Made by a program: the position numbers and the translations under genes. A stretch of 13,181 nt of DNA from Anaerolineales bacterium (GTDB lineage Bacteria; Chloroflexota; Anaerolineae; Anaerolineales; VGOW01), in the NCBI GenBank assembly GCA_919901875.1, contig CAKKQG010000096.1, forward strand, positions 1,726-14,906. The letters run 5' to 3'. Each line of letters opens with the position of its first letter. The stretch's first letter is position 1. Shown here one piece after another: positions 1-12,562 of the stretch. The notes beneath the pieces were generated by a model, which was given only the letters and a program-made list of their open reading frames with translations, searched no databases and had not been told where the DNA came from.

Positions 1-1108
1 CAAAAGAGGTCGCCAGACCGGCGACGGTGCTGCTGTGTCAAAGCCGCGCGCAGTGATCAATGTTATTTGTGCCGATCACCTGCCGCGCAAATTTTTGCAT
101 CAAATAATTTTCTTCGTTCAAACATTTCGCCGAAGAAAGAACACCGATACTGTCGCCGCCAAACTGATCGCGCGCCTCCCTTAATTTCCTCGCAGTAATA
201 TCGAGCGCGACATCCCAACTCACCTCAACCCATTTCCCTCTATTTCCATCTTTCCTTTGTTTCCCTTGCAATAGGTATTCACGGACAAGAGGCTTAGTGA
301 GTCGATCCGAATGATGAACGAAGTCATAACCATAACGACCTTTGACGCACAAGTGCATTCCATTGACGGGCGCGTTGGGGTTCGAGGTGACGCGGATGAT
401 CTTGTTATCTTTTATGTTGAGATCAAGTTGGCAGCCGACTCCACAATAGGTGCAAGTGGTCGTCACTACTTTATCGGGTTTGCCTGCCTCAATGGACATT
501 TTGTTATCCAGCGCGCCCGTCGGGCAGTAGGCAACACACGCGCCGCATGATTCGCATCGCGCTTCGAGCATCGTCGTGCCAAGTCCGGCGGCGATTTGCG
601 TGCTTGCCCCGCGCTCACTGGTGCGCCAGACGAATCGCCCTTGCACTTCGGCGCAAGCGCGCACACAGCGCGTGCATAAAATACATTTGTTGAAGTCCAC
701 CCACACAAACGGATTCGGATCGCTGTTCACCTTGTGTTCAACGCGAGTGATCGATCCTTCGGGGCGAGTCGCGCCATAAAGTTTCACCCAACGTAAAAAC
801 TCGGTATCACCTTGAAGATCGTTATCGCTGTAATTAGTGAGCAGCAATTCGAGGATCGTTTTCCGCGCGCGAGTCAGCTCATCCGATTCGGTTCGCACCT
901 TCATCCCCTCACGCACAATCACGCCGCACGCCGCTTGCGGAGTCTTTGCGCCTTCCACTTCCACCACGCACAAACGGCACGACCCGACGGTAGATAAATC
1001 TTTGTGATAGCACAACGTCGGAATCGTGATGTGCTGTTCGCGGGCGATCTCGATCAGGGTTTGACCTTCGCGGGCTTCAATGGATTGATTGTTGATAGTG
1101 ATTAACAT
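1..1108 (-). CDS. fdhF: Formate dehydrogenase catalytic subunit, selenocysteine-containing, N-terminal part (runs off left edge)
   Basis: Catalytic subunit of a cytoplasmic Mo/W-bis-MGD formate dehydrogenase with a NuoG-like N-terminus; it interconverts formate and CO2. The order is: a [2Fe-2S] domain (Cys33, 44, 47, 61), a double [4Fe-4S] ferredoxin domain (Cys142/145/148/152 and 185/188/191/195), then the molybdopterin-oxidoreductase [4Fe-4S] motif (Cys219, 222, 226, 254) with the usual Lys256 two residues after the last Cys. The sequence reaches CARL and then a TGA at 40-38. After it the frame reads HSSTVAGLATSF, the family sequence that follows the active-site Sec/Cys, so TGA is read as Sec357. 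About 369 codons are visible of a protein usually 700-900 residues long. The His-Cys cluster motif normally found near residue 90 is absent. ATG 1108 lies just before the ferredoxin fold; no clear Shine-Dalgarno precedes it. The formate channel gene lies 79 nt upstream on the same strand, which suggests an operon. Family assignment is very secure; the redox partner is unknown. Confidence 0.93.
9..25 (-). promoter_or_regulatory. Bacterial SECIS hairpin for the fdhF UGA
   Basis: Twelve nucleotides after the UGA, the minus strand forms a perfect six-base-pair stem, GUCGCC with GGCGAC, closed by the five-base loop GGUCU. From general knowledge, the E. coli fdhF SECIS also presents GGUCU in its apical loop about 17 nt after the UGA and binds SelB there; here the loop starts 18 nt after. 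The Gly-Leu codons GGU-CUG occupy the same codon positions relative to UGA as in E. coli. It would require SelA, SelB, SelC and SelD elsewhere in the genome. Confidence 0.85.
38..40 (-). other. UGA selenocysteine codon (Sec357 of formate dehydrogenase)
   Basis: The minus strand reads TGA here, directly after codons for CARL and before codons for HSSTVAGL. In the formate dehydrogenase family the residue between these blocks is the Cys or Sec that ligates Mo/W. The in-frame continuation to the window edge and the hairpin just downstream argue for recoding rather than termination. Confidence 0.88.
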
Positions 1109-1187: not shown

Positions 1188-2045
1188 TTACATGCTCTTC
1201 CTCAAATACACAAACCAATACACCACCCCCACCAACAACGCCCCGCCGATGATGTTGCCGATGGTGACGGGCAGCAGGTTATTGATGAAGAATCGATCCC
1301 AAGTGAGAAATGGGAAATCGTCGGGAGTCTTTTGAATCATCCCCCAAAAATTTTGCGCCGCACTTGCTTTGATGAATAAGCCAATAGGGATGAAATACAT
1401 ATTAGCGATGCTGTGTTCAAAGCCCGCCGCCACAAACGCCGTGATGGGCGGAATGATCGCCAAGATGCGATCCGTGGTCGTGCGCGCGCTAAAGGTGAGC
1501 CACACGGCAAGGCAAACGATGGCGTTGCACATCACGCCCAAAGCAATCGCCGGAATAAAATCGAGACCGGATTTTGTGTTGGCGGTGATGAGCGCGGCTA
1601 AACCCACCACGCCTTTGCCAAACAAGTATTGACCACTGATGAACATCAGCATCGCCGTGGCAAACGAACCGACGAAGTTGCCCACATAGACAATCACCCA
1701 ATTGTGCAACAGTTGCATAGTGGTCACTTTGCCGCTCGCCCACGCCATGACGATCAAATTATTTCCGGTGAACAACTCTGCCCCGCCGACGATGACCAAG
1801 ATCAAGCCCAGCGAAAAAACTAAACCGGCGAGAAGGCGAGTCACGCCAAAGGGCAAATCGGCGGCGCCCGCGCTAACGGTGGTCGAGAAGATCGCTCCAA
1901 TGGCGATGAACGCTCCCGCCATCACCGAGAGTGTGAACATGCTGAGCCAATTCATATTGGCTTTGCGCACGCCAATCGCTTCCGCCTTCGCTGCCATATC
2001 GGGCGGGAGTAGTGCATCCAATTGAATTTCGCCGTTTGTGGTCAT
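1188..2045 (-). CDS. focA: Formate/nitrite transporter (FNT) family channel
   Basis: Inner-membrane pentameric channel of the FNT family, 285 residues, the same length as E. coli FocA. Signature segments are visible: GGAELFTGN (residues 87-95, with the gating Thr93) and FEHSIANMYF (209-218, with the central pore His211). There are about six hydrophobic membrane segments starting near residue 37. The start at 2045 is chosen over an upstream ATG at 2075 because GAGGAG (minus strand, 2057-2052) lies six bases before it, while the upstream ATG has no ribosome site. It sits directly upstream of a formate dehydrogenase gene on the same strand, so formate is the likely substrate; nitrite or hydrosulfide relatives (NirC, HSC) cannot be excluded from sequence alone. 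Confidence 0.93.
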   Translation of the reverse strand: MTTNGEIQLDALLPPDMAAKAEAIGVRKANMNWLSMFTLSVMAGAFIAIGAIFSTTVSAGAADLPFGVTRLLAGLVFSLGLILVIVGGAELFTGNNLIVMAWASGKVTTMQLLHNWVIVYVGNFVGSFATAMLMFISGQYLFGKGVVGLAALITANTKSGLDFIPAIALGVMCNAIVCLAVWLTFSARTTTDRILAIIPPITAFVAAGFEHSIANMYFIPIGLFIKASAAQNFWGMIQKTPDDFPFLTWDRFFINNLLPVTIGNIIGGALLVGVVYWFVYLRKSM

Positions 2046-2080
2046 CGTGATCTCCTCAGCCAATTCCCCCAGCATTGGTC

Positions 2081-5186: not shown

Positions 5187-5219
5187 AGACCGCGTCGGTT
5201 TTAAAAACCGACGCGGTCT
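5187..5219. repeat. AAGACC-type modular hairpin, copy 1
   Basis: A 16-base perfect inverted repeat (5187-5202 with 5204-5219), left arm AGACCGCGTCGGTTTT, begins nine bases after the ppdK stop. No T-run follows, so unlike the near-identical copy at 12523 it is not a classical terminator. It is followed by a smaller hairpin, CCGCAG/CTGCGG with loop CTCAA, near 5231-5247. Confidence 0.85.
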
Positions 5220-7762: not shown

Positions 7763-7784
7763 AGGAGTAATAGGCTTACCTGAT

Positions 7785-7836
7785 AAGACCGACGCGGTTT
7801 ACAAGACCGACGCGGTCTTGCGAAGCACGTCGGTCT
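7785..7836. repeat. AAGACC-type repeat, rearranged copy in the nifJ leader
   Basis: AAGACCGACGCGGT occurs twice directly (7785-7798 and 7803-7816). The second copy pairs with CGTCGGTCT (7828-7836) through AGACCGACG (7804-7812). The middle block GACGC is the reverse complement of the GCGTC found in the left arms of the copies at 5187 and 12523, as if half-arms had been recombined. It ends seven bases before the nifJ ribosome site (GAGG, 7844-7847), so the hairpin could affect initiation. Confidence 0.65.
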
Positions 7837-7852
7837 AATAAACGAGGCGACT

Positions 7853-12522: not shown

Positions 12523-12562
12523 AAGACCGCGTCGGTTTCTAAAACCGACGCGGTCTTTTTTT
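12523..12562 (+). terminator. Intrinsic terminator after the nifJ operon (AAGACC-type hairpin, copy 3)
   Basis: A 16-base perfect stem (12523-12538 with 12542-12557), left arm AAGACCGCGTCGGTTT, loop CTA, and then an unbroken run of seven T's (12556-12562). This is a textbook Rho-independent terminator and closes the nifJ transcription unit. Its hairpin is nearly identical to the one at 5187-5219, which lacks the T-run. Confidence 0.9.

Follow-up and report, generated by a model that had tools for sequence, protein, structure and literature searches.

In fdhF of Escherichia coli, a TGA codon stands at the catalytic position of the formate dehydrogenase, and a hairpin located just downstream within the coding region goes with it, the codons GGT CTG being the seventh and eighth after the TGA. 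The apical stem of this hairpin contains a bulged U, and an A-U pair closes its GGUC loop. Other formate dehydrogenases belong to the FdsA type, a name which we take to denote alpha subunits with an N-terminal iron-sulfur extension, as in the protein considered here.

According to PMC13188914 and PMC1794560, no bacterial selenoprotein family is more widely distributed than FdhA, and switches from Sec to Cys with remnants of the SECIS element were described in 2006. As for the Chloroflexota, published reports mention a formate dehydrogenase annotated with Sec in single-cell genomes of Anaerolineales (PMC4959059; see also PMC5736913), a focA gene adjoining fdhA together with the selenocysteinyl-tRNA pathway in a Chloroflexi MAG from Lost City (PMC7117926), and, in Dehalogenimonas, selC as well as formate dehydrogenase and SelD genes with an in-frame UGA followed by a putative SECIS (PMC4918011). 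A selenocysteine-containing formate dehydrogenase with its SECIS is a well-known arrangement and an ordinary one in this lineage. The present locus differs from these reports in that it comes from another species and in that figures are given here for how often the hairpin is retained with TGA and lost in Cys homologues.

The window, by which we mean the whole stretch of 13,181 nucleotides that was analysed, corresponds to bases 1726-14906 of contig C96 in an Anaerolineales assembly (G000) of 2.63 Mb and 484 contigs that is 64% complete. Judging from its sequence, the fdhA gene at the left edge of the window (Table 1) very probably encodes the alpha subunit of a selenocysteine-containing formate dehydrogenase, with Sec at residue 357.

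Table 1. Features of the fdhA locus. Positions refer to the window except where locus L009 is named.
Feature	Position	Strand	Evidence
fdhA 5' part, residues 1-356	41..1108	minus	ORF; Pfam Fer2_4, Fer4 families, Molybdop_Fe4S4, Molybdopterin (start of domain)
In-frame TGA, predicted selenocysteine 357	38..40	minus	sequence; aligned with TGA or TGC/TGT in relatives and with the TGA of E. coli fdhF
fdhA portion 3' of the Sec codon: HSSTVAGLATSF plus the first base of the following codon	1..37	minus	ends at 100-N gap
Putative SECIS hairpin (5' arm 25-20 GTCGCC, loop 19-15 GGTCT, 3' arm 14-9 GGCGAC)	9..25	minus	fold; pair counts and consensus structure on 19 sites; 80 loci
fdhA continuation outside the window, 537 codons	L009:15-1625	minus	one frame beyond gap
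focA-type formate channel	1188..2075	minus	TIGR04060 297.3 bits (cut-off 290.1); PF01226; homologue at the same place in G004

The fdhA reading frame on both sides of the assembly gap

On the minus strand, the ATG at 1108 opens a frame of 356 codons which runs into a TGA (40-38) preceded by CARL and followed by HSSTVAGLATSF. The sequence-only reading had assigned this codon to the Sec/Cys position of the family, and the alignment with relatives bears this out; the residue at this position is presumably the metal ligand, as in known formate dehydrogenases. Residues 1-356 comprise, according to Pfam, a 2Fe-2S domain, 4Fe-4S domains, Molybdop_Fe4S4 and the start of Molybdopterin. Since a run of exactly 100 N (L009 1626-1725) lies directly at the left edge of the window, this edge is a scaffold gap and not the end of the contig. 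The reading from the sequence alone had also proposed that the frame extends leftwards into the catalytic domain: beyond the gap it indeed goes on for 537 codons, without an early end, and holds Molybdopterin and Molydop_binding domains, both over the Pfam cut-off. TIGR01591 is the best match of this C-terminal piece (581.2 bits) and, for the N-terminal piece (169.9 bits), ranks after NuoG (220.2 bits, with the NuoG cut-off of 470.05 not reached); each piece alone stays under the TIGR01591 cut-off of 666.25 because the gap splits the gene.

An intact and continuous fdhA frame of 943 residues, with one internal TGA, is found in a genome of the same genus (G004), and counting against its translation indicates that about 31 residues, or about 92 bases, are missing in the gap. 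The G000 codons that follow the hairpin fall in this unsequenced gap, and the frame across it is therefore taken from G004. In both genomes, the terminator of fdhA is also a TGA (L009 14-12, minus strand, in G000). As a frame read with TGA as Sec runs on past the last domain, TGA most likely serves as a stop here too, and a single fdhA gene seems to use TGA in both capacities.

A separate observation concerns the part of the coding sequence located beyond the window, where an in-frame inverted repeat of 28 nt, 86% complementary, is found at L009 969-1041 on the minus strand. At this position, the fdhA gene of G004 has, by eye, a different short stretch, and the element resembles a short repeat that has been inserted in a variable linker.

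A hairpin downstream of the TGA codon

The perfect 6-bp stem and GGUCU loop that had been announced from the sequence are present at 25-9, with six Watson-Crick pairs and a 5-nt loop that starts 18 nt after the TGA, and GGT CTG make up codons 7-8 after the TGA, an offset identical to that of fdhF in E. coli K-12. In contrast to the E. coli hairpin, the six pairs are unbroken, a C-G pair closes the GGUCU loop and there is no bulged U. For the last 40 bases, the minimum-energy and centroid predictions both give this hairpin (-10.6 kcal/mol). In the form quoted in PMC13188914, the bacterial SECIS model has a loop of 3-9 nt, an upper stem of 4-16 bp, a G in the first two loop positions, a distance of 16-37 nt from UGA to loop and an energy of at most -7.5 kcal/mol; the window hairpin agrees with it throughout (5-nt loop starting with G, 6-bp stem, 18 nt from UGA to loop, and the energy given above).

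Taken alone, the hairpin is weak evidence, and the comparison of TGA with Cys genes is strong evidence. Indeed, the fold of the single sequence is not exceptional, with a shuffle z-score of -0.69 and 48 of 200 shuffles folding at least as well, and among 200,000 synonymous recodings the six pairs are kept in 17.6%, the loop in 9.8% and both in 1.8%. The z-score and the 1.8% of recodings were set aside as support, and the comparison of TGA and Cys genes was used in their place. These same figures, namely the modest z-score and the frequencies at which recodings give the stem or the stem with the loop, lend some colour to the view that the hairpin arises as a side effect of the encoded peptide (VAGLA[TA]) and of codon bias, Sec insertion making use of another signal. 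The existence of one TGA homologue (L042) devoid of the hairpin points the same way.

Comparison of TGA and Cys homologues

A first set of relatives comprised 59 scanned loci, with 36 sites fitting the motif used (20 TGA and 16 Cys) and 23 loci without the motif. The full six-pair stem was present at 19/20 TGA sites and at 0/16 Cys sites, and the same counts were obtained for the GGTCT loop. Covariation was examined in an alignment (A2) of the 19 canonical TGA sites, amounting to 18 distinct rows, from which L042 was left out. In this alignment, 100% of cells pair, against a shuffled mean of 90.2% and with 0/500 shuffles as high; furthermore, 10 cells show two-sided changes, a number reached by 0/500 shuffles, each slid control giving 0. 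The two-sided changes are found in just two of the six pairs, which 222/500 shuffles also attain, and three pairs are invariant; the covariation in this 19-site set is narrow. Pairing at the 16 Cys sites is limited to 47.9% of cells, a level like that of their shuffles.

The homologue L042 (G033, 1046-1085) has a TGA and lacks the GGUCU hairpin at its usual place, with 2/6 pairs and a GGCCT loop. This site, which may reflect an error, gene decay or a SECIS of another kind, is counted as a miss in the first set and is absent from the tree described below.

A second set came from GTDB contigs: scanning them yielded 232 relatives, and the best 80 were retained, so that the nearest relatives are favoured. 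Nearly all belong to Chloroflexota, two loci being labelled Acidobacteria and Betaproteobacteria, and the two sets overlap (L177 is G004 and L179 is G017). Among these best 80 of 232, 55 have TGA and 25 have Cys at the Sec/Cys position. The GGUCU loop occurs in 55/55 TGA genes versus 9/25 Cys genes and the six-pair stem in 54/55 versus 1/25, the exceptions being a TGA gene with one C-A mismatch in the stem (L232) and a Cys homologue from Ornatilinea in which the whole hairpin is kept (L219). Within the same best 80 of 232, all 55 TGA genes share the CGGUCUG core, and 53 of them CCGGUCUGG.

These 80 relatives, the window gene and three more distant rows were placed on a tree of 84 rows, built by a quick method and with the few hairpin-coded residues left in. 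Sec and Cys interchange at least 8 times on this tree. When 8 independent pairs were compared, an average of 7.9 had the full hairpin on the side of Sec and none on the opposite side (sign test, median p 0.0078). At the pair that joins a third codon position to another third codon position, both partners change among the Sec rows, each at least 12 times, and pairing is found in 57/57 Sec rows versus 12/27 Cys rows; when restricted to this pair, the independent-pairs test does not reach significance (4.6 for and none against; median p 0.0625). At a different pair, U-A replaces C-G in L182. Across relatives, the hairpin is far beyond chance, and the trait of a bacterial SECIS is present in that pairing is kept through changes and mostly lost where Cys replaces Sec.

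Such a pattern is hard to reconcile with a mere by-product of the coding sequence, given the repeated changes of both third-codon partners with pairing maintained in every TGA row, the U-A pair of L182 and the loss of the stem in most Cys rows, and we regard this explanation as very improbable. Even less credible is a sequencing error, with TGC/TGT miscalled as TGA, or a pseudogene with a genuine nonsense mutation. The codon does lie 37 bases from the 100-N gap, in a fragmented assembly, but TGA occupies the same codon in a same-genus gene that is 91% identical, in a gene that is 74% identical and in 55 of the best 80 of 232 loci; furthermore, the SECIS loop and stem accompany it, and the reading frame is open before as well as after it.

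Selenocysteine machinery

Profile searches of G000 retrieved selA (371 bits), selB (319 bits) and selD (365 bits), all over cut-off, selA and selB both being cut by contig ends. Hence, of the complete selenocysteine pathway that the sequence-only reading had expected in the organism, these three genes are in place, but selC was not found in this one 64%-complete assembly: the best Rfam match, at 41 bits, falls short of the gathering score (47), and blastn with the selC region of G003 returned no selC. Five weak Rfam matches to tRNA-Sec in G000 (29.6-41 bits) were rejected as selC because ARAGORN calls the same loci Gly, Ser, Trp, Gly and Leu tRNAs. On the other hand, the same-genus genomes G001-G004 carry selC, with the anticodon TCA according to ARAGORN, beside tRNA-Phe, -Gly and -Cys.

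For the wider comparison, tRNA-Sec was counted at 64 bits or more only. Matches of about 48 bits in relatives (L073, L074) can be tRNA-Ser despite exceeding the gathering score, ARAGORN finds nothing in the 53-bit match of G010 (L072), and the first Rfam look scored only 88 candidates per genome. Among 20 genomes with a TGA fdhA, tRNA-Sec at this level is present in 16, selB over cut-off in 17 and selD over cut-off in 20. Within these 20, tRNA-Sec at 64 bits or more is missing in G000, G017, G010 and G006 and selB is under cut-off in G003, G033 and G006, G006 having selD alone at these levels. The genomes G013 and G038, which have a Cys fdhA, show none of the three at these levels, whereas all three are there in G016, G026 and G020, also with a Cys fdhA; therefore, a Cys fdhA does not mean loss of the pathway. 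More broadly, selB is over cut-off in 128 of 150 genomes of the class (90% completeness asked for; G000 among the 150).

The genome G017 (L140, L143) combines a TGA fdhA, selB and selD with no tRNA-Sec match, including beside the tRNA-Phe/Gly/Cys cluster. A missed or unusual tRNA-Sec and an assembly gap are the candidate readings.

The selD gene of G000 has itself an in-frame TGA in its CAGU motif (L136 on contig C142, 2720-2718, minus strand) and is therefore a probable second selenoprotein gene. Among 29 genomes, selD is over cut-off in 26, each best match having one TGA, and at all 27 selD sites read a candidate hairpin is among the best two per site, with a spacing of 21 nt at 4/5 sites of the window genus and of 32-33 nt at the 22 others. 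A SelD-PAS/GAF fusion, suggested by an open frame of 935 aa, was rejected: a 100-N gap hides the end of selD, and the same-genus selD genes L147, L148 and L150 end about there.

Reading of UGA as Trp or Cys genome-wide, or by a suppressor tRNA and without selenium, would suit an assembly in which selC is unseen, but the TGA at the end of fdhA itself most likely acts as a stop, the genome has selA, selB and selD, and on the tree the hairpin accompanies TGA; we give this explanation next to no credence.

Neighbourhood and enzyme type

The focA gene lies directly upstream of fdhA on the same strand and is followed by a divergent gene of the pyruvate phosphate dikinase family; both families occur in the same order in G004. 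There, the next ORF downstream of fdhA is an arginine-deiminase-family gene, at the place where the contig ends in G000. Two more distant genomes, G014 and G017, have NuoE/NuoF-like diaphorase genes next to fdhA, and G014 also has fdhD there; FdhD was not found in the 64%-complete assembly of G000.

Formate dehydrogenase H (1aa6) aligns from residue 219 only of the 943-aa G004 protein and thus represents a formate dehydrogenase without the N-terminal extension. In contrast, the alpha subunits of 7vw6, 7e5z, 9wxb and 6tg9 match it over nearly the whole length, from residue 2-6 to residue 936-940. Like FdsA-type alpha subunits, the piece in the window has N-terminal cluster domains of the same kind, and this extension with 2Fe-2S and 4Fe-4S clusters is a feature of the FdsABG type; unlike FdsA-type systems, the window and G004 have focA as the upstream neighbour of fdhA. 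The enzyme is probably NAD(P)-linked.

Two kinds of repeats were noticed in the window. Between focA and fdhA, an inverted repeat at 1128-1189 consists of two adjoining 31-nt arms that are 87% complementary. Elsewhere, a near-identical intergenic palindrome (AAGACCGCGTCGGTTTT and complement) is found at 5187-5219 and 12523-12557 and, in a less similar form, at 7783-7843; a REP-like or terminator-like repeat is a candidate reading.

Discussion

We are highly confident that fdhA encodes an N-terminally extended formate dehydrogenase alpha subunit with Sec at residue 357, whose UGA would be decoded by SelA, SelB, SelC and SelD by means of the hairpin. The read-through as Sec with a SECIS in register, put forward by the sequence-only reading, has gained in support at the level of comparative sequence analysis because an open catalytic half lies beyond the gap, because an intact TGA-containing gene exists in G004 of the same genus and because the hairpin persists in genes with TGA and has disappeared from most genes with Cys. 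In the proposed mechanism, SelB with GTP and Sec-tRNA would bind the hairpin through its GGUCU loop and 6-bp stem, 18 nt downstream of the UGA, and, once bound, would deliver Sec to the ribosome at this codon. Sec insertion, SelB binding and the presence of selC, as well as the electron partner and the direction of catalysis, are inferred.

Such genes are read as truncated if the TGA is taken as a stop, and in the present case the 100-N gap, falling just where it matters, obscures the picture further. The comparison provides a clean picture of a SECIS under selection, kept with TGA and mostly decayed with TGC/TGT over at least 8 switches. It also leads us to suggest, tentatively and with somewhat more doubt than conviction, that Anaerolineae possess a lineage-wide and rigid fdhA SECIS with an unbroken stem, no bulged U, an invariant CGGUCUG and a fixed spacing of 18 nt. 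Our literature search turned up no description of a bulge-less SECIS for the class, although one may nevertheless exist. If this suggestion is true, SelB of Anaerolineae would recognise a GGUCU loop that has no bulge of the E. coli kind, a bulge that SelB of E. coli may need, and the Sec/Cys switches among close relatives, at least 8 in number, would constitute a natural series of SECIS decay.
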